A stretch of 64,000 nt of DNA from Taibaiella helva (lineage in GTDB: Bacteria > Bacteroidota > Bacteroidia > Chitinophagales > Chitinophagaceae): assembly GCF_003545695.1 (NCBI RefSeq), contig NZ_QUZZ01000008.1, positions 124,001 to 188,000 on the forward strand, written 5' to 3'. Positions within the stretch are counted from its first letter, which is position 1, and every line of letters begins with the position of its first letter. Positions 32,884 to 52,061 of the stretch are shown here, one piece after another. Both the position numbers and the translations under genes were made by a program. The notes beneath the pieces were generated by a model. That model was not told the DNA's origin and ran no database searches. It was given only the letters and a program-made list of their open reading frames with translations.

Positions 32884-33598
32884 TATATCGTAAAATTGTA
32901 TTAAGTCCCTTCAAAAGAAGTTGAGAATCTGCAAATATCCGATTTTTTAGCTTGCCGGCAAAAATCGGGGCATTGCCACCCGTTAAAACGATATTCAGAC
33001 CGGGATATTGCTCCCCGTAGAAATTTATCATGCCATCCAGCTCAGCTATGATCCCCAGGACTACACCGCTGCGGATGCTGGTTTCCGTATCATAGCCCAG
33101 CAGCACCACCTCGCCCTGCGCCTCGACCAGTGGCAATTTGTCGGTGTAAGCATTCAGGGCCCGGAAACGCATTTCCATACCAGGGGTAATATTACCGCCC
33201 CTGAAGGTTTTATTTTTATGGATAAAATTATAGGTAATGGCCGTGCCCACGCTGATCACCAGGTTATTGGCATCGGGATACTCGCTGTTGGCGCCTATGG
33301 CCAGGGCAAGGCGGTCGGCGCCGAGTGTATCGGGGCTATGATAAGCATTCATGACCGGCAGGGGTGTTTGGGCGTTCAGCACCAGGAGCCGCGTCTTTTC
33401 CTGCAGCAGCACCTTTAGCTCGGGCGGATGATGGGCTACCGAAGAGAGAATAGCAGACTGTGGCTGCTGGCTGTCTGCAATGTCTATAAGGCCGGTAAGC
33501 GCCTCTTCTTCGGAAAAGTTATAGTCCTTTACCAGCTTGTTCTCCTGGAAAAGTGCAGCTTTGACGCGGGTGTTGCCCCAATCGATACATAGTTGCAT
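32873..33598 (-). CDS. coaX: Type III pantothenate kinase
   Basis: First step of coenzyme A synthesis, phosphorylating pantothenate. The ATG at 33598 gives 241 residues, normal for CoaX. Motifs of the ASKHA fold are visible: CIDWGNTRVKAALF (phosphate loop, residues 4-17), TLGADRLALAIGA, VISVGTAITYNFI and GGNITPGMEMRFRAL. Type III enzymes require a monovalent cation and are not inhibited by CoA. First gene of the coaX-porin-lptC unit. Confidence 0.93.
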   Translation of the reverse strand: MQLCIDWGNTRVKAALFQENKLVKDYNFSEEEALTGLIDIADSQQPQSAILSSVAHHPPELKVLLQEKTRLLVLNAQTPLPVMNAYHSPDTLGADRLALAIGANSEYPDANNLVISVGTAITYNFIHKNKTFRGGNITPGMEMRFRALNAYTDKLPLVEAQGEVVLLGYDTETSIRSGVVLGIIAELDGMINFYGEQYPGLNIVLTGGNAPIFAGKLKNRIFADSQLLLKGLNTILRYNVR

Positions 33599-33661
33599 AA
33601 GCAAGTGATTTGGATGAATAAAAGGTATTGAAAAATTGGTTCTGGCTTTCAGGTATGCCGC

Positions 33662-34267
33662 TCAGTTCAGGTTGATCCTGGACTTCAGGATGTCCAGGTC
33701 GTCAACTTCGGGCATAATGGAATTGAAATACCGGCGCAGGTATTCCATGCGCTGCACTTCGTTAAAAATACTGAGCAGATCGTATTCCTGCTCACGTGTA
33801 AGGCCCAGCTTGTGCGCAATATCGTACGAAGACCACTGCTGCTCTTCTTCAGGCATCCTGTTCTCTATGTTCAGCAGGGTGTATAGCCGCTTTACCTCAT
33901 CATGGATCAGCCGCGACAGCTTGGGATGCACCTTCATCTTATCGTTTTCGGGATAGCTGACAATAGCGCCCGAGTAGGGTTTTTCCGGCAGACTTTTGAC
34001 TACTTCCAGTATGCGGAAGACCTGCTGCCCTTTGATACGCACTTCCAGCGCGCCGTTATCGTATTCTTTTACGATCGCAAGTATTTCCATAAGGGTCCCG
34101 TATTCTCTTATCTTTTCGTCGTGCAGGAGCGGGATGCCGAATTGCTTTTGCTCTTTATAGCAGTCGCGGATCAGCTGGATATATTTGAATTCGGAAAGGT
34201 GTAAGGTAAAAGTTTCGTCTGGGTACACTACTGCATCCAGGGGCACTATAGGAATGAAATTCGTCAT
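33662..34267 (-). CDS. Lon-type substrate-binding-domain protein (LON_substr_bdg)
   Basis: A 201-residue protein consisting only of the N-terminal substrate-recognition domain of Lon protease: FIPIVPLDAVVYPDETFTLHL, then GTLMEILAIVKEYDNGALEVRIKGQQVFRI and the C-terminal helical bundle. There is no AAA+ or protease domain. The ATG at 34267 is used; the longer frame would run back over the trp promoter and leader. Its role in Bacteroidota is unknown. Divergent from the trp operon. Confidence 0.85.
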   Translation of the reverse strand: MTNFIPIVPLDAVVYPDETFTLHLSEFKYIQLIRDCYKEQKQFGIPLLHDEKIREYGTLMEILAIVKEYDNGALEVRIKGQQVFRILEVVKSLPEKPYSGAIVSYPENDKMKVHPKLSRLIHDEVKRLYTLLNIENRMPEEEQQWSSYDIAHKLGLTREQEYDLLSIFNEVQRMEYLRRYFNSIMPEVDDLDILKSRINLN

Positions 34268-34339
34268 TATCAGGTCAGGAACCGCTTGGGTGTTATGAAT
34301 CAAAACAGGAAGGCAATATAACACAATTTTGAAAAAAAA

Positions 34340-34370
34340 TTTGGACAAATGAAAGCTATTCCTATCTTTG
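34340..34370 (+). promoter_or_regulatory. Consensus promoter of the trp operon
   Basis: TTTG (34340-34343), exactly 19 bases, then TATCTTTG (34363-34370): a perfect match to the Bacteroidota housekeeping promoter TTTG-N19-TAnnTTTG. Predicted transcription start about 34377, some 40 bases before the leader ORF. Confidence 0.85.
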
Positions 34371-34416
34371 CCACCATTGCGGGAATACCAGTCGTGCTCC
34401 CGGCTATGCAAAAACA

Positions 34417-34497
34417 ATGGCTTCTTTACACGCAACTGCAAATCAATATTGGTGGCTTTCACGATGGCAACACGTGAACAGCACTGATATGCGCTAG
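34417..34497 (+). CDS. trpL: trp operon leader peptide
   Basis: A 26-codon ORF starting ATG at 34417 and ending TAG at 34497. The peptide has Trp at positions 12, 13 and 17 (QYWWLSRWQH), three Trp in 26 residues in front of a terminator and trpE. Known logic of ribosome-mediated attenuation applies: when Trp-tRNA is scarce the ribosome stalls at the Trp pair, leaving 34474-34483 free to form the antiterminator; when Trp-tRNA is plentiful the ribosome runs to the stop codon, covers that arm and the terminator forms. An overlapping frame from 34406 has a single Trp and is less likely. No strong Shine-Dalgarno is present, as is common in this phylum. Confidence 0.82.
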   Translation: MASLHATANQYWWLSRWQHVNSTDMR

Positions 34498-34534
34498 TTG
34501 TATCAGAATATTCCCTGACCGGTCTGCTGTTCGC
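34474..34534 (+). promoter_or_regulatory. Antiterminator helix of the trp attenuator
   Basis: GTGAACAGCA (34474-34483) can pair with TGCTGTTCGC (34525-34534), ten pairs including one G-U. The right arm uses bases 34525-34534 that belong to the terminator stem and loop, so the two structures exclude each other. A 6-bp side helix (34484-34489 with 34501-34506) fits inside the loop. Confidence 0.7.
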
Positions 34535-34548
34535 AGACCGGTTTTTTT
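34518..34548 (+). terminator. trp attenuator terminator
   Basis: A perfect 10-bp GC-rich stem (34518-34527 with 34533-34542), loop TGTTC, followed by an uninterrupted T run (34542-34548). It lies 21 bases after the leader stop codon and 35 bases before trpE. Confidence 0.9.
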
Positions 34549-34582
34549 ATTCCCCTTTTTCAAAAAAAAATCTTATTGGATT

Positions 34583-35980
34583 ATGGTGTACCATTTTAAG
34601 GTACGGTCGCGTGCGCTGCCTGCCGATACCTTGACCCCCGTAAGCGTCTATCTGAAGCTGAGAGACCTGTTCCCCGACGCCCTATTGCTCGAAAGCGTCG
34701 ACTATAACGGCAATGAGAACAGCTATTCTTATATCTGCTGCGCACCGGTAGCCGGGATCATTGTCCGGCCCGAGGGAGCGGAAAGCTGTTTACCTGATGG
34801 GACAAAGCAAGTGAGCACAGCCTTAAATGAAGCTCTGACGGCCTTTCCGCAGCAATTCTCTTTTGAGCCGGCAGCTAAGGATTATTGCCGGGGCCGATTG
34901 TTCGGGCATATCAACTATGACGCTGTCGGTCTTTTCGAAGATATTGTTTTTCGGGAACGGGATGAAGCAGCGCCTGAATTGCTGGCCAGGCTGCATGTGT
35001 ATCGTTACATGATCGTATTCGATCATTTTCATCATACCGTTTACCTTACCGCGCATTTCACGGAGAACGAAGATGAACCCTCCTTTGCGGCCATGGAAGC
35101 GGCTTTACGACGGCCGGCGCCGGCAGGTTTCCGTTTCCGGATCTCCGGCCCTGAAGAAGCAGAAGAGACCGGTGAGGCATATAAAGAAAAAGTGGCCCAG
35201 GCCATAGAACATTGCCGGCGCGGCGATATTTTCCAGGTAGTCTTATCACGCACCTTCTCGCAGGCGTTTACCGGCGACGACTTCAACGTGTACCGTGCTT
35301 TGCGCATGGTCAATCCTTCTCCCTATCTCTTTTATTTCGATTACGGCGACTACCGTTTGTTCGGCTCCTCTCCCGAAACCCAGCTCCGGGTAAAGGACGG
35401 CGTCACCATGGTGTATCCGATCGCCGGTACCTCCCGCCGTACCGGCGATGAGACTGAAGACGAAGAGCTGATCGCCGCGCTGATGGCCGATCCCAAGGAG
35501 CAGGCCGAGCATACTATGCTCGTTGACCTAGCCCGGAACGATTTGAGCAAAAGTCATGATGAAGTTGCCGTGGAATCTTATAAAAAGGTGCAGCGCTTTG
35601 CCCATGTCGTTCATATTGTCAGCGAAGTGAGGGGCGACCGGCCGCTGCACAGTAACGCTATCCGGATGCTCGCCGATACTTTTCCAGCGGGGACCTTATC
35701 GGGTGCACCCAAGCACCGGGCCATGCAGCTGATCGATCAATACGAGCACAGCCGCCGCGGCTACTACGGAGGCGCTATCGGTTTCCTGGAACCCGGCGGG
35801 CAGCTGAACCAGGCGATCATGATCCGCACCTTCATGAGCCGGAACAATCAGCTGCATTACCGGGCCGGAGCCGGTATCGTAGTGTCTTCCGTTCCGGAGA
35901 ACGAATTGCAGGAGATAGCGCATAAGCTGAGAGGATTGCGCACAGCTATCCGGGCTGCGGAAAATATCGGCATGGCATAA
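34583..35980 (+). CDS. trpE: Anthranilate synthase component I
   Basis: Converts chorismate to anthranilate using ammonia from TrpG. At 465 residues it is full length. The N-terminal LLES motif (LLLESVDYNGNENSYSY) is the tryptophan feedback-binding site. The chorismate-binding domain includes GDIFQVVLSR, PSPYLFYF, GSSPE, YPIAGTSRR, ARNDLSK, GAPKHRAM and GGAIGFLEP, with C-terminal RAGAGIV. First structural gene after the attenuator, so both feedback inhibition and attenuation are expected. Confidence 0.96.
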   Translation: MVYHFKVRSRALPADTLTPVSVYLKLRDLFPDALLLESVDYNGNENSYSYICCAPVAGIIVRPEGAESCLPDGTKQVSTALNEALTAFPQQFSFEPAAKDYCRGRLFGHINYDAVGLFEDIVFRERDEAAPELLARLHVYRYMIVFDHFHHTVYLTAHFTENEDEPSFAAMEAALRRPAPAGFRFRISGPEEAEETGEAYKEKVAQAIEHCRRGDIFQVVLSRTFSQAFTGDDFNVYRALRMVNPSPYLFYFDYGDYRLFGSSPETQLRVKDGVTMVYPIAGTSRRTGDETEDEELIAALMADPKEQAEHTMLVDLARNDLSKSHDEVAVESYKKVQRFAHVVHIVSEVRGDRPLHSNAIRMLADTFPAGTLSGAPKHRAMQLIDQYEHSRRGYYGGAIGFLEPGGQLNQAIMIRTFMSRNNQLHYRAGAGIVVSSVPENELQEIAHKLRGLRTAIRAAENIGMA

Positions 35981-36018
35981 ACAAAATCCTATTGATCATT
36001 TCCCTAAAAGCAAAAGAC

Positions 36019-36621
36019 ATGAAAATACTGATCCTGGATAATTACGACAGCTTTACGCATAACCTGGCGCTGATCGTAGCAGACCTCAGCGGTACTCGTC
36101 CCGATGTAAGAAGGAACGACACTATTACAATCGAAGAGGTGGCCGCTTACGATAAAATCCTCCTTTCTCCCGGACCCGGTCTACCCGCTGAAGCCGGTAT
36201 CCTGTGCGCGCTGATCGAACGCTATGCCCCATCAAAAAGCATACTGGGCATATGCCTGGGGCACCAGGCTATAGGCCAGGTCTTTGGCGCCACGCTGCAG
36301 CAGCTGGATATGGTTTATCATGGTGTAGCTACGCGGGTGGAGCGGCTGCAGCAGGACGATCTCTTTGAAGGCCTACCGCCCCAGTTTGAAGCCGGCCGGT
36401 ATCATTCCTGGGTAGTGGCGAGGGAAGCCTTACCTGCCTGCCTGGAGGTGCTTGCAGCTGATGCCGGGGGGCAGATCATGGCGCTGCGGCACCGGAGCTA
36501 TGATGTGAAAGGCTTGCAGTTCCATCCTGAAAGCATTATGACACCGGCAGGCCGGCAGCTGATACACAACTGGCTACAACCCTATGCTCCGGTCACTTCA
36601 TCTTCCATTAAAAACAATTAA
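36019..36621 (+). CDS. trpG: Anthranilate synthase component II (glutamine amidotransferase)
   Basis: Class I amidotransferase of 200 residues that releases ammonia from glutamine for TrpE. The start is at MKILILDNYDSFTHNL; the frame extends nine codons upstream without similarity. The catalytic triad is visible: Cys79 in LGICLGHQA and the His/Glu pair in LQFHPES; the PGPG loop is at 51-54. It may also serve 4-amino-4-deoxychorismate synthesis, as in some bacteria with one TrpG. 38 bases after trpE. Confidence 0.95.
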   Translation: MKILILDNYDSFTHNLALIVADLSGTRPDVRRNDTITIEEVAAYDKILLSPGPGLPAEAGILCALIERYAPSKSILGICLGHQAIGQVFGATLQQLDMVYHGVATRVERLQQDDLFEGLPPQFEAGRYHSWVVAREALPACLEVLAADAGGQIMALRHRSYDVKGLQFHPESIMTPAGRQLIHNWLQPYAPVTSSSIKNN

Positions 36622-36625
36622 GCTC

Positions 36626-37660
36626 ATGAATACCTTATCCCCGCCCGATGGCGCCTTGCCTTACCTGATGAAAAAGGTGCTGGATCGCCTGAGTAGCTAT
36701 GAAACCCTTTCTTATACCGAAGCCAGGGAAGTGCTGCTGGGCATTACCGGCGGCATGGTCAACGAAAGCCAGATGACAGCTTTTATCGCTGCCTTTATGA
36801 TGCGTCCGCTCACACCCGATGAGCTTTCCGGCTTCAGGGATGCGCTGCTGGAACAGGTGGTGCAGCCCGGTTTGCCTGCTACCGATGCGATAGACATTGT
36901 CGGTACCGGCGGCGACGGCAAGCATACCTTCAATATCTCCACCCTGACTTCCTTTGTGGTAGCAGCCTGTGGCTATCGTGTGATCAAGCATGGCAATTAC
37001 GGCGCCACTTCGGTTAGCGGCTCTTCCAATGTGATGGAATACCTGGGTTATCGTTTTACCGCAGATGAATCGGTGCTCCGGCGTCAGCTGGATGCCTGCG
37101 GTATCTGCTTCCTGCATGCGCCGCTTTTCCACCCGGCTATGCGGCGTGTGGCCACGATACGGAAAAACCTCGGGCTCCGCACGTTCTTCAACCTCCTGGG
37201 GCCGCTCACTAATCCCGCACAGCCGGCGCATCTGCTGCTGGGCGTCAATACCCTGGAAGCGGCGCGTATGTTCCATTACCTGCTCCAGGAAAGCCCGGTG
37301 CAATACAAAGTCATTCATAGCCTGGATGGTTATGATGAGCTGTCGCTCACCGGCCCTGCAAGGATATTCACACCGCTGACACAGGAAGTGGTCACGCCCG
37401 AAACGCTTGGCTTCCCGCAGCTCGACGCCGGTGCCCTGGCCGGGGGAAAAGAGATCAGAACGGCAGCTGCGATCTTTATGAATGTGCTCCGGGGAGAGGC
37501 TACAACAGCCCAGGAGCAGGTGGTGATCGCCAATACGGCCATGGCTATCCGTACGCTCCATCCCACGATTTCTTTCGCCGATGCTGTGGCGGCAGCTACA
37601 GAAGCGCTGTGCTCGGGAAAAGCACTGGACACTTTTAACCGGACCCTCCAAATTCAATAA
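36626..37660 (+). CDS. trpD: Anthranilate phosphoribosyltransferase
   Basis: Joins anthranilate to PRPP. 344 residues from the ATG at 36626, four bases after trpG. The PRPP-binding GTGGD motif is at residues 93-97, followed by KHTFNIST and KHGNYGATSVSGSSNVMEYLG. The fold is the nucleoside-phosphorylase class II type, with an N-terminal helical domain. Not fused to TrpG. Confidence 0.95.
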   Translation: MNTLSPPDGALPYLMKKVLDRLSSYETLSYTEAREVLLGITGGMVNESQMTAFIAAFMMRPLTPDELSGFRDALLEQVVQPGLPATDAIDIVGTGGDGKHTFNISTLTSFVVAACGYRVIKHGNYGATSVSGSSNVMEYLGYRFTADESVLRRQLDACGICFLHAPLFHPAMRRVATIRKNLGLRTFFNLLGPLTNPAQPAHLLLGVNTLEAARMFHYLLQESPVQYKVIHSLDGYDELSLTGPARIFTPLTQEVVTPETLGFPQLDAGALAGGKEIRTAAAIFMNVLRGEATTAQEQVVIANTAMAIRTLHPTISFADAVAAATEALCSGKALDTFNRTLQIQ

Positions 37661-37663
37661 GCG

Positions 37664-38449
37664 ATGAACAATATACTGGAAACAATAGCAGAACATAAAA
37701 AGCGGGAAGTGGCCGGCCGCAAGAGAGCCCTGCCCCTTGCCAGGCTGGAAGCTATCGCCCTGGAACAACAGGCAGTGCTGCCCCTGGATGCCTTCATCAG
37801 GGATAAGCGGAAGACCGGCATCATTGCTGAGTTCAAACGGCGCTCTCCGGTAAAAGGCCTGCTGAACGATACCGCCGCCGTTGCCGAGGTAACCGCCGGC
37901 TATGCGCAGCATGGCGCCAGCGCGCTGTCGGTGCTTACCGATCAGGATTTTTTCGGCGGCGGCAGTTACGACTTCAGCCAGGCGCGGAGCAATGACATCC
38001 CCCTTCTGCGCAAGGACTTTATCATCGATGAATACCAGGTGATCGAGGCCAGGGCTATGGGCGCCGATGCGATACTCCTTATTGCCGCGATACTGACACC
38101 CAGGCAGGTGCAGCGCTTGTCGCAGCTTGCAGTATCGCTACAGCTGCAGGTAGTGCTGGAGGTGCATAGCCGGGACGAGCTGGAGCATTACTGCCCTGAA
38201 GTGACTGTAATAGGTGTAAATAACCGTGACCTGAGGACGTTTACGGTCGATCTGGAGCACGCCGCAAACCTTTGCTCCTATCTGCCTGAAGCAGCAGTAA
38301 AGATCTCTGAAAGCGGTATCAGGAGCGCATCGGACCTGAAGGTGCTGCGCCAGGCAGGATACGAAGGCTTTCTGATCGGTAGCTTATTTATGAAAGAAGC
38401 AGCGCCGGCAGCGGCTTTCGCCCGCTTCGTACAATCCCTTGAGCCATGA
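37664..38449 (+). CDS. trpC: Indole-3-glycerol-phosphate synthase
   Basis: Closes the indole ring by decarboxylation of CdRP. A 261-residue TIM barrel with the family motif EFKRRSPVKG (Glu56, Lys58, Ser61), LRKDFIIDEYQ, GADAILLIAA, LEVHSRDEL, GVNNRDLRTF and ISESGI. Three bases after trpD and overlapping trpF by four bases. Not fused to TrpF, unlike E. coli. Confidence 0.95.
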   Translation: MNNILETIAEHKKREVAGRKRALPLARLEAIALEQQAVLPLDAFIRDKRKTGIIAEFKRRSPVKGLLNDTAAVAEVTAGYAQHGASALSVLTDQDFFGGGSYDFSQARSNDIPLLRKDFIIDEYQVIEARAMGADAILLIAAILTPRQVQRLSQLAVSLQLQVVLEVHSRDELEHYCPEVTVIGVNNRDLRTFTVDLEHAANLCSYLPEAAVKISESGIRSASDLKVLRQAGYEGFLIGSLFMKEAAPAAAFARFVQSLEP

Positions 38450-39072
38450 AGATCAAAGTTTGCGGACTGACCGGAACCTATAATATGGAAGCCGTTGCAG
38501 GCTTGGGTGTCAATCGCTGCGGCCTCATCTTCTATCCCTCCTCTCAGCGGTACGCAGGCCGGAATGCGGCATTGCAGGCTCGCTGCGCCGCTGCTCCTTT
38601 CCCTGGGCTGACAGGCGTCTTCGTCAACCAGGATGAAACATATATCCGGGAAATAACGGCAGCATTCCGGTTGAGCTTTATACAGCTGCATGGCACTGAA
38701 CAGCCTGCGTTTTGTGCCCGTATCAATGCCATACGTCCCGTGATCAAGGCTTTTGCGATGCATGAGCAATTTAACTTTGATCGCTTAAAGCGGTATCAGC
38801 ACAGCTGCAACGCCTTTCTCTTTGATACGCCCGGTAGCAGCCATGGTGGCACGGGGCGCACGTTCAACTGGAGCCTGCTACAGGATAAGGATATTCCCTT
38901 GCCCTTCTGGCTTGCCGGTGGTATCGGCCCCGGCGATGTTGCCAAAGTAAAGGCATTCCACCACCCGGCTTTTACAGGTATCGATCTCAACAGCCGCTTT
39001 GAAAGCAGCGCCGGTGTTAAAGATATCACCTTGCTCAAAGCATTTATTAACGATTTACGCAAAAGCATATGA
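38446..39072 (+). CDS. trpF: Phosphoribosylanthranilate isomerase
   Basis: Amadori isomerisation of PRA to CdRP. A 208-residue TIM barrel starting MKIKVCGLT, where Cys6 is the expected general base. [15 protein letters not shown] and [10 protein letters not shown] are present. The general acid position, normally Asp in a GGxGxxFDW motif, is Asn141 here (GGTGRTFNW; the codon is AAC). This is unusual; activity may rely on another group or be reduced. The C-terminal [15 protein letters not shown] replaces the more common DVSSGVE...GxKD. Overlaps trpC and trpB by four bases each. Confidence 0.9.
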
Positions 39073-40271
39073 CCTACGCAATTGATAAAAATGGCTACTA
39101 TGGCTATTATGGAGGCGCTTATATTCCCGAGATCCTGCGGGCTAATATCGTTGCCCTGAAGCAGCAGTTCCTGGCCCTGCGCGACGACCAGGCATTTAAT
39201 GCCGCCTTCTTCGGCCTGCTTAAAGACTATGTAGGCCGGCCCTCTCCGCTATATTATGCTTCCCGGCTATCGGAGCGCTATGGTGCAAAGATCTACCTGA
39301 AACGCGAGGACCTGAACCATACCGGCTCGCATAAGATCAACAATACCATTGGCCAGGTATTGCTGGCACAGCGTATGGGTAAGCGGCATATACTGGCCGA
39401 GACCGGGGCGGGGCAGCATGGCGTGGCTACCGCTACCGTTGCGGCCCTGATGGATATGCAATGCACCGTGTTTATGGGGGAAACGGATATGGCAAGACAG
39501 CAGCCTAATGTGGAGAAGATGCGTCTGCTGGGCGCTACGGTAGTGCCGGTGACCAGCGGCAGCAAAACCCTGAAAGATGCTGCCAATGAAGCCATACGCT
39601 ATTGGATCCATCATCCGGTTGATGCCCATTATGTTATCGGTTCCGTTATTGGCCCCGATCCATATCCTGCTATGGTAGCGCATTTCCAGAGCGTGATCAG
39701 CGGTGAGATCCGGAGGCAGCTGATGGAGCAGGAAGGTACCCCCTTCCCACATGCCGTGATTGCCTGCGTGGGAGGAGGTAGCAATGCTGCCGGCGCCTTC
39801 CATCATTTTCTCAATGATAAGGAGGTACAGTTGATCGGCGTCGAAGCCGCAGGCAAGGGCGTAGATAGCGGGTATACCGCCGCTACCATTGCCACAGGCA
39901 GCACCGGCGTGATCCATGGCAGCAAGACTCTACTGATGCAGGACAGCGACGGCCAGATCCGGGAACCCTATAGTATCTCAGCCGGATTGGATTACCCCGG
40001 TATAGGCCCCTTACATGCTTACCTGCATGAGACCGGTCGCGCCACCTTCATGCAGGTAACCGATGAAGAAGCCCTGCAGGCGGTCTTCCTGCTGATGCAT
40101 CTTGAGGGTATCATACCTGCTATCGAATCGGCGCATGCCCTGGCGGCGCTGGAAAAGCTATCTTTCACCCATGCCGGCCCCGTGGTGCTCTGCCTTTCCG
40201 GAAGAGGAGACAAGGACATGGATACTTATATCCGTGAGGCGCCGGCCGCACTTAAAACGCATTTGCCATGA
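39069..40271 (+). CDS. trpB: Tryptophan synthase beta chain
   Basis: Condenses indole with serine. A 400-residue PLP enzyme of the TrpB1 type: the Schiff-base lysine is Lys89 in HTGSHKINN, the phosphate-binding loop GGGSNAAG is near residue 235, and AETGAGQHG and GLDYPGIGP are present. Overlaps trpF and trpA by four bases each, which supports translational coupling with its partner subunit TrpA. Confidence 0.96.
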
Positions 40272-41041
40272 ACCGTATCAGGTCTTTATTTGAACAAAAG
40301 GAAAAGGATATTCTTTCCTTTTATTGTACTGCGGGCTATCCCCGCCTGGAAGATACCCTGCCTGTATTGAAAGCGTTGCAGGCCGCCGGCGCCAATATGA
40401 TCGAGATCGGTATACCCTTTTCCGATCCCCTGGCCGATGGCCCTGTGATCCAGGAGAGCAGCGCTGTTGCGCTAGCCAACGGTATGAACCTGGCCGAGCT
40501 CTTCCGGCAGCTGAAGGATGTGCGCAAGGAGATCGGTATTCCACTGATCCTGATGGGCTACCTGAATCCTTTGCTGCAATATGGCGTATCCCGCTTCTGC
40601 AGGGACGCCGCCGCCTGCGGCATCGATGGCCTCATCATTCCCGACCTGCCCCTGGAAGAGTACAGGAGAGAATGGCAGCATAACACGGAGGCATACGGGC
40701 TGGACATGATCTTCCTGGTAACACCCTTTACGTCGCAGGAGCGGTTGCGGGAGATCGACGATTGTAGCACCGGATTTATTTATATGGTGACCGCAGCCGG
40801 AACAACCGGCGGCAGCATCGGCTCCGATCCGGAAACCCACCGGTACTTTTCCTTCATCCGGGATCAGCAGCTGAAGCATCCTGTAATGGCCGGCTTCGGT
40901 ATCCGCGACAAAACCGGTTTTGAACAGGTCTGCGCTTTTGCGCAGGGCGCGATCGTCGGAAGCGGGCTTATCAGGGTGCTGCAGGAGTATCCGGCTAAAG
41001 GCGAGCCGGTGATCCGGGAATTTGTACAATCCTTTCTTTAA
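40268..41041 (+). CDS. trpA: Tryptophan synthase alpha chain
   Basis: Cleaves indole-3-glycerol phosphate to indole, which is channelled to TrpB. A 257-residue TIM barrel with catalytic Glu46 and Asp57 in [16 protein letters not shown], followed by [18 protein letters not shown] and GFGIRDK. Last trp gene; 127 bases separate it from the DAHP synthase gene. Confidence 0.96.
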
Positions 41042-41168: not shown

Positions 41169-42260
41169 ATGGAAACGCTTCCGGAAGAAAAACAGGAAAT
41201 GAAGGCCCTGCTGCAACGGCGTCCGCTGGTGATTGCCGGGCCTTGCAGCGCAGAAACAGAGGAACAGGTAATGGAGACGGCGCTGCGTCTTAAAGCAACA
41301 GGAAAAGTGCACGCCCTTCGGGCCGGCATATGGAAGCCCCGTACCCGCCCCGGCAACTTTGAAGGTGTGGGAGTGCAGGGACTGCCCTGGCTGCAAAAGG
41401 CGGCGGCAGCTACCGGTCTGCCTTTCGGTGTAGAAGTGGCAACCGCCCGGCAATTAGAAGACGCGTTGCGTCATGAAGCCGACTTTGTATGGATCGGCGC
41501 CCGTACGACAGCAAACCCTTTCAGTGTACAGGAAGTCGCCGATGCGCTTAAAGGATTGGCTTTGCCCGTGCTCATCAAAAACCCGGTAAACCCGGATATG
41601 GAGCTGTGGACCGGCGCCCTGGAAAGGGTGATGAAAGCAGGTATCACGCAGGTTGCGCTTATCCACCGCGGCTTCTCTGCTTATGGTCAGACCGACTTCA
41701 GGAATGCACCCATGTGGCAGCTCGCGATCGAAATGAAGCGGCGCTTTCCCGCCTTGCCTTTTCTCATCGACCCTTCGCATATTTGCGGCAACCGCCACCT
41801 GTTGCAGGAAGTGATGCAGAACGCTATCGATCTCGATTATGACGGCCTTATTATTGAAAGCCATCGTGATCCCGACCAGGCCTGGAGCGATGCCAGCCAG
41901 CAGATCACGCCGGAGCGGCTGACACAAATGCTGGACGGCATCGTATGGCGTAAGGAAGAAGTGCTTTCCGAAGAGCAGCACCTGCACCTGCAAAAGCTGC
42001 GCAGCCAGATCGACCGCCTGGACGACGAGCTGCTGCGCCTGCTGCACGACCGGATGAAAATCTCGGAGCAGATAGGGGAGTATAAAAAAGAGCATAACAT
42101 TACGATCCTGCAGACCGAGCGCTGGAACCAGATCCTGGAACGGGTTTGCCGGAACGGCGAAAGGGCGGGGCTGAGCAAGGAATTTATTACCCAGTACTAT
42201 GATGCCATTCATATGGAAAGCATCAAGCACCAGGACGCCATCATGAATGCTCATGAATAG
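41169..42260 (+). CDS. Bifunctional DAHP synthase / chorismate mutase
   Basis: The N-terminal part (about residues 1-260) is a 3-deoxy-7-phosphoheptulonate synthase of the KDPG-like class (VIAGPCSAE, AGIWKPRTRPGNFEGVG, FGVEVA, IGARTTANPF, LIKNPVNPD, FLIDPSHICG). The C-terminal part (about 275-355) is an AroQ-type chorismate mutase (LRSQIDRLDDELLRLL, RMKISEQIGEYKK, ERWNQILERV). One protein thus catalyses the first shikimate step and the first step toward Phe/Tyr; in such fusions the mutase domain is thought to sense chorismate or prephenate. Symbol usage varies (aroF, aroG, aroA-pheA), so none is given. Overlaps the next gene by 14 bases. Confidence 0.92.
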   Translation: METLPEEKQEMKALLQRRPLVIAGPCSAETEEQVMETALRLKATGKVHALRAGIWKPRTRPGNFEGVGVQGLPWLQKAAAATGLPFGVEVATARQLEDALRHEADFVWIGARTTANPFSVQEVADALKGLALPVLIKNPVNPDMELWTGALERVMKAGITQVALIHRGFSAYGQTDFRNAPMWQLAIEMKRRFPALPFLIDPSHICGNRHLLQEVMQNAIDLDYDGLIIESHRDPDQAWSDASQQITPERLTQMLDGIVWRKEEVLSEEQHLHLQKLRSQIDRLDDELLRLLHDRMKISEQIGEYKKEHNITILQTERWNQILERVCRNGERAGLSKEFITQYYDAIHMESIKHQDAIMNAHE

Positions 42261-51371: not shown

Positions 51372-52061
51372 TTAAAATCCTATAGTAAAGCCAACCCTGA
51401 AGTCGACGCGGTTGGCATAGGGACTGATGGAGTATTTGTCACCGTACTGATCGGTACGGGTATTGCCGGGCAGGTTCTGCAGCACATCATAAAAAGCCAT
51501 GATGAAGATGGAAGAGTATTCTGCTATCGGTTGGCGATAGCCCGCGCCCAGAAGCAGGCAGGGAACGGTTACCCTTTCTTTTACCGGTTTGCGCCAGCCG
51601 TCACGGTCGGGGACAAAGCCGCGATCGAGGTTGTAGAAGCTCAGGTTGTTGACCTCAAACTCGGCTTGCACCATGATGTTGGGAATAATGATGTATTTGC
51701 CCCATACGCTGCCGCTGTAGATCGATTGGGACAAAGGGAAATACTTGGTCTCAAAAGTGTTGATGTTGTCGGAGAGGAAAGCATCCTTCTGGCGGTAATA
51801 ATTATAGCCCAGGGTAATACCCGCGGCGAAGTTATCGGTGATCCGGTAGCCTACGGAAGGAGCGACATAGATATTGGTAATGGAGCCGAAAGTGAGCCCC
51901 AGTCCGCCGCCGAAGACCATACGGTTGATATCGAACCCTTTCTTTTTCTGATTCTCCTTGTACCTTGCCTGGCCGGACTTACCGCTGCTGTTGTATATCT
52001 CCTGGGCCTGCGTCGTGACAAAACCGGTGCACAGCAAGGCCAGTAATATGATCCTTTTCAT
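51372..52061 (-). CDS. Outer-membrane beta-barrel protein
   Basis: A 229-residue protein starting MKRIILLALLCTGFVTTQAQ (signal peptide). A basic linker (KENQKKKGFD) is followed by alternating strands (GGGLGLTFGSITNIYVAPSVGYRI, FAAGITLGYNY, WGKYIIIP, VDFRVGFTIGF), ending with the terminal Phe typical of barrels inserted by the BAM complex. Function unknown; common among Bacteroidota porin-like small barrels. Confidence 0.78.
   Translation of the reverse strand: MKRIILLALLCTGFVTTQAQEIYNSSGKSGQARYKENQKKKGFDINRMVFGGGLGLTFGSITNIYVAPSVGYRITDNFAAGITLGYNYYRQKDAFLSDNINTFETKYFPLSQSIYSGSVWGKYIIIPNIMVQAEFEVNNLSFYNLDRGFVPDRDGWRKPVKERVTVPCLLLGAGYRQPIAEYSSIFIMAFYDVLQNLPGNTRTDQYGDKYSISPYANRVDFRVGFTIGF

Follow-up and report, generated by a model that had tools for sequence, protein, structure and literature searches.

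The tryptophan operon of Taibaiella helva, trpEGDCFBA, is very probably preceded by a ribosome-mediated, Trp-sensing transcription attenuator. The parts of this device were read from the sequence of a 64-kb stretch of the genome (64,000 nucleotides, hereafter the window), their conservation was assessed by comparison with relatives, and the switch was modelled by RNA folding; from these we infer a transcript, translation of its leader, termination and a response to tryptophan. A first-pass annotation of the window had already interpreted the region as an attenuator, and this interpretation is supported both by the conservation in relatives and by the modelled ribosome positions.

Under the proposed mechanism, RNA polymerase would start at a promoter composed of TTTG and TATCTTTG, and a ribosome would initiate on a short leader ORF that lacks a Shine-Dalgarno (SD) motif. 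If charged tRNA-Trp runs short, the ribosome would wait at Trp12-Trp13 and open a protector hairpin, leaving positions 34474-34483 free to pair with 34525-34534 once these are made; the terminator would then come too late, and trpEGDCFBA would be transcribed. When Trp is plentiful, the ribosome would reach the stop codon and cover 34474-34483, such that the terminator would form and transcription would end before trpE. With no ribosome on the leader, the protector hairpin would hold the same segment and the terminator would form as well.

Results

The leader and the genes behind it

We confirmed that a Trp leader, a terminator and an antiterminator stand before the trp operon (Table 1), and on re-reading the sequence, all the features previously annotated upstream of trpE were found in their places. 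The two promoter elements, 19 bases apart, were assigned following what we take to be the Bacteroidota-type promoter consensus. The leader ORF opens with ATG 34417, encodes MASLHATANQYWWLSRWQHVNSTDMR and closes with TAG 34495-34497, so that the claim of a 26-codon leader with Trp at codons 12, 13 and 17 is borne out. The protector hairpin overlaps the left antiterminator arm, GTGAACAGCA, which makes all 10 of 10 pairs, one of them G-U, with the right arm, TGCTGTTCGC. Thus, the 10-pair antiterminator that had been said to use terminator bases does so, with the refinement that these bases come mainly from the loop and the top of the terminator: the right arm consists of three bases of the terminator 5′ arm, the 5-base loop and two bases of the 3′ arm. 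The 7-T tail attributed to the terminator is present at 34542-34548, but the stem has 11 pairs (34517-34527 with 34533-34543, the outermost pair being G-U, loop TGTTC) rather than the 10 claimed. A competing out-of-frame ORF (34406-34476, MQKQWLLYTQLQINIGGFHDGNT, starting at ATG 34406) overlaps the leader, and its 3′ end falls within the left antiterminator arm; three relatives (L001, L083 and L084, introduced below) lack an ATG-initiated equivalent in this frame.

Table 1. Features of the trp leader region and the following genes, in window coordinates
Feature	Position	Strand	Evidence
Predicted −33 element TTTG	34340..34343	+	Sequence; 19-base spacing likewise in T. koreensis (L001)
Predicted −7 element TATCTTTG	34363..34370	+	Sequence; TAnnTTTG counts in other leaders
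Leader peptide ORF, 26 codons	34417..34497	+	Sequence; frame common to L001, L083, L084
Trp12-Trp13, predicted sensing codons	34450..34455	+	TGGTGG invariant in four-sequence alignment
Protector (1:2) hairpin TTCACG/CGTGAA	34458..34478	+	Folding; six pairs identical in four species
Trp17, in protector hairpin loop	34465..34467	+	Invariant in four-sequence alignment; modelled stall P 0.30
Antiterminator left arm GTGAACAGCA	34474..34483	+	Folding; 97.5% of cells paired, four species
Small hairpin CTGATA/TATCAG round stop codon, inside antiterminator	34484..34506	+	Folding; pairing in 83% of cells, with a single double change
Intrinsic terminator, 11-pair stem, 5-base loop, T7	34517..34548	+	Folding; compensatory changes
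Antiterminator right arm TGCTGTTCGC = terminator stem top and loop	34525..34534	+	Folding, pairing conservation
trpE	34583..35980	+	PF04715, PF00425
trpG, trpD, trpC, trpF, trpB, trpA	36016..41041	+	Profile matches
DAHP synthase fused to chorismate mutase, downstream	41169..42260	+	Profile matches

The gene order behind the leader is trpEGDCFBA, and the divergent neighbour gene encodes a LON-substrate-binding-domain protein. The DAHP synthase-chorismate mutase gene is possibly co-transcribed with the trp genes. Elsewhere in the same genome, a His-rich leader (HHHHFH; MSFTQLHHHHFHTGPQPGGNDLV) followed by a terminator hairpin lies upstream of hisG (L203, contig C21, 1189-1260, reversed locus). 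A search for a possible branched-chain leader ended with the dihydroxyacid dehydratase gene not being found, and no Thr/Ile-rich leader was detected at homoserine dehydrogenase loci by the rule applied.

Conservation in close relatives

We aligned four sequences, namely the window, T. koreensis of the same genus (L001; the closest TrpE relative among the matches listed, 80% identity), a third species of the genus (L083, genome G174; 58%) and a species of another genus (L084, genome G125; 49%). The first-pass annotation had proposed the Trp codons and the antiterminator pairing of close relatives as checks on its reading. In all three relatives, the leader frame, the WW pair and Trp17 are retained, and the antiterminator pairing is not lost in any of them. 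The peptide NQYWW(L/H)SRWQHVNS(T/A)DM is common to the window, L001 and L083, and WWLSRWQRVNS is common with L084. At the nucleotide level, the 25 bases TTCACG...AACAGC are the same in L001 and L083, with two positions changed in L084.

Covarying stems, the other sign that had been suggested, are apparent in the terminator and not in the antiterminator or the protector hairpin. In the terminator stem, both partners changed in 4 of the 9 inner pairs counted, with pairing intact in every cell of the four species, while the loop TGTTC remained constant as the stem was rebuilt, which is as expected if the loop must pair with the leader. For the protector, stop-codon hairpin and terminator taken together (21 pairs), five measures were compared with 500 shuffles; the observed value was never attained on four of them and was attained by 3 shuffles on the fifth. 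The antiterminator is paired in 97.5% of cells in register compared to 24-56% when slid; no double compensatory change was found among the four relatives and accordingly no covariation support. Because its columns hardly vary, the shuffling control, in which 251 of 500 shuffles scored as high, does not separate it from chance. The protector hairpin is invariant and therefore gives no covariation evidence.

A 15-base pattern, AATCARTATTGGTGG, is present in 25 of 294 family genomes. In-frame products were read on the + strand for 12 of 20 loci, and a leader-like product was seen only at L131 and L132, both of the genus, with L116 as a doubtful further case. The match in G101, a genome of the same genus, was rejected as a leader given that it sits in another frame of a longer gene. 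G101 yielded just a distant TrpE-like match (E 4.5e-39), and trpE is seemingly absent from it, in contrast to the three further genomes of its genus.

The modelled switch

Folding was modelled on RNA from 34377 (an assumed start) to 34534, with a ribosome footprint reaching 18 bases upstream and 12 bases downstream of the A-site codon's first base, a size that was likewise assumed. The probability of the antiterminator was 0.97 with the ribosome on Trp12 and 0.98 on Trp13, compared to 0.01 with no ribosome, 0.03 with the ribosome on the start codon and 0.00 on the stop codon. In the folding model, these values uphold both halves of the annotated logic, that is, that a ribosome halted at the Trp pair frees the left arm and that one at the stop codon (34495-34497) covers it. 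On Trp17, the probability was 0.30; a ribosome there would cover part of the left arm, and the model suggests that Trp17 is a poor stalling place. Under the generic measure of antiterminator pairing used for the wider set of loci below, the E. coli trp leader gave 0.23 against 0.00004, and that of T. koreensis, a near-copy of the window's leader, gave 0.65 against 0.02.

The outcome depends on how much of the RNA is available. With the ribosome on Trp12 or Trp13, the antiterminator probability is still 0.97-0.98 at RNA end 34538 and drops to 0.01-0.04 when two more bases, up to 34540, are released. With the RNA extended to 34548, every ribosome state favours the terminator (for Trp13, −43.4 versus −34.3 kcal/mol, a difference of about 9). 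Because the terminator is more stable beyond approximately 34540, the decision must fall while RNA polymerase covers its 3′ arm. RNA polymerase hides roughly 14 bases of transcript, so that an early decision in the model is plausible, but the kinetic timing is its weakest step.

Spread over the family and the class

A TrpE match was detected in 190 of 195 family genomes and in 181 of 198 genomes of a wider sample. We examined 110 trpE loci, consisting of the best 80 of 270 confirmed TrpE matches and the best 30 family matches, a choice that favours strong TrpE relatives. The rule applied was an ORF with two Trp codons within five codons, followed by a terminator, upstream of trpE. A Trp leader with a terminator was found at 103 of the 110 loci, or at 99 of 106 when identical copies were removed. 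For the latter set, the antisense control gave 0/106 and the shuffled control 1/318, and the same rule applied to other residues was satisfied at 18 loci for Met, 11 for Cys, 39 for Tyr and 11 for His.

The misses among the 106 are L069, L080, L088, L089, L094, L108 and L110. A Trp-rich ORF is present in L080, L088, L089, L094 and L108, the terminator being absent by the rule; in L108, a hairpin and a T run are visible by eye. L110, whose contig ends about 230 bases upstream, has MQIIHTYNTWWWHGNSCRIAV and a terminator-like hairpin, and L069 has a single Trp codon in a short ORF.

In the class of the window, which we take to be the Bacteroidia of GTDB, a strong TrpE match was present in 45 of 49 genomes sampled; three of these were already counted (L081 and L091 with a terminator, L088 without one by the rule), leaving 42. 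A Trp leader and terminator precede trpE at 41 of the 42 (antisense 1/42, shuffled 0/126). Among loci of other classes, hand-picked to cover many families, the count was 14 of 25 (antisense 0, shuffled 1/75). These frequencies suggest that the trp attenuator leader looks close to class-wide and that the T. helva leader is ordinary for its class. The finding had been called notable for Bacteroidota; this holds for the class, but not as a rarity of this genome, given that 41 of 42 class loci are alike.

Pairing between the leader and the terminator is less uniform. The complementarity of a leader to its own terminator beats shuffles (at most 5 of 100) in 45 of 82 distinct loci, with a median z of −1.85, and the mean duplex energy is −18.8 for own and −14.4 for swapped pairs; in only 30 of the 82 does a terminator pair better with its own segment than with at least 90% of those from other species. 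In the folding model applied to 118 distinct loci (of 158), the mean antiterminator pairing was 0.28 in the stall state compared to 0.09 at the stop codon, 0.09 with no ribosome and 0.12 with a shuffled leader; the stall value exceeded that of the shuffled leader in 81 of 118 loci (Wilcoxon p 1e-9). A rise of at least 0.3 over the stop state was modelled in only 36 of the 118 loci, with 1 reversed. Thus, the parts are widespread, yet the simple model yields no switch in most loci.

These data bear on two other explanations, each of which we consider very unlikely. Under one, the terminator is constitutive or serves a non-ribosomal sensor (a T-box, a TRAP-like protein or a riboswitch), with the Trp-rich ORF being there by accident. 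Intergenic terminators are widespread, and at full length the terminator was more stable than the antiterminator whichever ribosome state was modelled; both points count for this explanation. However, the preference for Trp is specific, with 99 of 106 trpE loci compared to 1 of 318 shuffles and 11 to 39 of 106 loci for the four other residues, and no known sensor was found: no T-box or other Rfam family matched near the window's trpE or in six relatives, and TrpR and TRAP are without a match in the genome. As to the individual candidates, the T-box search gave no Rfam match at E ≤1 in window positions 33000-36000, TRAP (TrpBP, PF02081) gave no match in the genome in a search that detected the B. 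subtilis control, and no match to the TrpR repressor family was obtained. An Rfam match to Hrs13 near trpE (18.5 bits against a gathering score of 52) was taken as chance.

Under the other explanation, which we hold to be just as improbable, control is translational, either because a ribosome stalled in the leader makes the trpE start more or less accessible or because the leader aids reinitiation at trpE. Leader ORFs have indeed been proposed as reinitiation aids, and leader-to-gene distances in Bacteroidetes peak at 11-14 bp (PMC4833913). In T. helva, however, 85 bases separate the leader stop from trpE, with the strong terminator and T7 in between, and the leader is retained together with a terminator in the 99 of 106 distinct loci. 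Accordingly, we favour ribosome-mediated attenuation of transcription for the window.

Start signals and variant layouts

The 158 leaders with terminators were restricted to those with an ATG start, taken as the ATG nearest the Trp codons, and near-copies were removed, leaving 129. Three Trp codons are found in 95 of these leaders, two in 23 and four in 11. The 90 bases before the leader ATG contain TAnnTTTG in 57 of 129 cases, compared to 5 of 129 for the 90 bases after it. An SD-like motif (AGGA, GGAG or GAGG at −18 to −4) was found in none of the 129; Bacteroidota generally begin translation without SD pairing, unlike E. coli. In 24 of the 57 leaders, the −7 box TAnnTTTG ends at most 12 bases from the ATG. 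Given the distance between the motif and the transcription start in promoters of this type, these 24 ORFs are predicted to be nearly leaderless.

Two Trp leader-terminator units in series were found in 4 of 177 upstream stretches, 31-406 bases before trpE: in Prolixibacter denitrificans (L004), Maribellus maritimus (L005) and two Marivirga (L067 and L068). L151, in which the first unit is a 34-codon ORF about 325 bases away, was left out of this count. A strict TAnnTTTG precedes the first unit in L005, L067 and L068; between the units of these loci it was absent, and L004 showed none.

A variant layout within the family was examined in 26 related leaders with a WWWHTNS peptide (alignment A2), hand-picked by peptide type. 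In their consensus structure, the Trp codons pair with the segment just 3′ of the stop codon in 91% of cells. Because the codons are fixed, 9 of the 12 pairs of this protector change on a single side, and when slid by three columns it is still 69-77% paired because of the TGG repeats. Pairing of the terminator 5′ arm with GGGGC, the codons that precede the stop, is possible in 85.6% of cells compared to 28-61% when slid. The controls fall short of decisive: the observed pairing percentage was reached by 19 of 500 shuffles for the antiterminator and by 146 of 500 for the protector. In this type, TGGTGGTGGCAT, comprising the Trp codons and the codon after them, is able to pair with the segment directly 3′ of the stop codon, which might account for the frequent retention of the His that follows WWW.

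We also observed that GCTGTTCA recurs at the terminator loop of L084, L003 and L161, which belong to distant lineages. Segments complementary to it (TGAATAGC, GATGGAC and GATGAACA) lie near the end of the leader ORF.

Controls against chance

The leader ORF and terminator (34417-34560) fold with −47.7 kcal/mol (z −5.0), and none of 200 shuffles was equally stable. A scan of both strands of the window for a codon run followed by a terminator, covering ten kinds of regulatory codons, returned 2 matches, of which the trp leader is the single one that precedes a cognate operon. The codon-run scan also pointed to a 36-codon ORF at 51490 on the minus strand; three Cys residues lie early in the peptide, and a 12-pair terminator comes after the ORF. 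When the leader segment was shuffled 2000 times, a helix of at least 10 pairs with the terminator arose in 31 cases and a duplex as strong as the antiterminator in 169. By itself, the antiterminator helix would be only moderately unlikely, and its weight rests on its conservation. These counts are what can be said for the notion that a short ORF with three Trp codons and accidental complementarity came to stand before an ordinary terminator by chance, a notion that merits hardly any credence because the arrangement is conserved at 58% and 49% TrpE identity and recurs over the class.

Discussion

Three features by which ribosome-mediated attenuators are recognised have a counterpart in the window. 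Codons for the amino acid made by the operon are clustered in a short, predicted upstream ORF. An intrinsic terminator, predicted from sequence, folding and covariation, lies between this ORF and the first gene. The third feature, a mutually exclusive antiterminator freed by a stalled ribosome and covered by a ribosome at the stop codon, appears in the folding model only.

Taken together, the comparisons lead us to think it somewhat probable that an SD-independent trp attenuator is ancient and near-universal in Bacteroidia. Under this view, the logic would have been kept while peptide ends, antiterminators and terminators were rebuilt in each lineage, and the attenuator would often be almost leaderless and would have been doubled in at least two lineages.

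If so, transcription and translation would need to be coupled at the first codons of the trp operon, and, to our knowledge, coupling has hardly been examined in Bacteroidota. Because ribosome-mediated attenuation works only if the ribosome closely trails RNA polymerase, the parts described here would constitute a natural reporter of coupling in the phylum. The leader sequences are also a ready set for a covariance model, which would be useful because no Rfam family reached the window or six relatives. Furthermore, the tandem units of Marivirga and of Prolixibacter and Maribellus could show the effect of serial attenuators on the range of control.

As regards known systems, serial leaders have a parallel in Salmonella mgtCBR, the two leader ORFs of which reportedly read different signals. 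By contrast, the two units of the four tandem relatives are both Trp-rich, and the window has only one. The likeness lies in the two short ORFs within one leader (PMC3641672).

Within the phylum, the window resembles other Bacteroidota Trp leaders in the succession of clustered Trp codons, a terminator and trpE, and the Taibaiella-type peptide grades into the common Bacteroidota type via L084 (NKYWWLSRWQRVNS). The pairings are arranged differently: in WWWHTNS leaders, the antiterminator arm lies in the loop of the Trp-codon pairing, whereas in the window the antiterminator arm shares bases with the protector arm. Comparative work by Lopatovskaya and others from 2010 may cover Bacteroidetes. 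No description of a trp leader attenuator in Bacteroidota was found among the literature matches listed, a set mostly without subscription journals and preprints. A 2010 study stated that, until then, Proteobacteria and Actinobacteria were the only groups with demonstrated leader-peptide systems, and added Firmicutes to them (PMC2965389). Small ORFs reminiscent of leader peptides were described in B. thetaiotaomicron (PMC7366714). The transcriptome of Flavobacterium psychrophilum, a member of the same phylum, provided strong clues for leader-peptide attenuation before amino-acid biosynthesis operons, a likeness to the window, although the main text of that paper contains neither 'trp' nor 'tryptophan' (PMC9723704).

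A close parallel is the trp attenuator of E. coli, trpL. Both leaders have a Trp codon pair in a short ORF and protector, antiterminator and terminator hairpins, the stall and stop positions fit the same logic, and the model switches both, with T. koreensis standing in for the window. Unlike trpL, the window's leader is without an SD-like motif, has a predicted Bacteroidota-type promoter and belongs to a genome in which TrpR is without a match, and its antiterminator mainly uses the loop and the stem top of the terminator. The Rfam model of the E. coli-type leader (RF00513, Trp_leader), which matched the trpL control with 93.1 bits, found no counterpart in window positions 33000-36000 (E up to 1) or in the six relatives (at the gathering score). 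Judged by its sequence, the leader of T. helva follows the known, E. coli-like attenuator logic and stands outside the Trp_leader family of Rfam.
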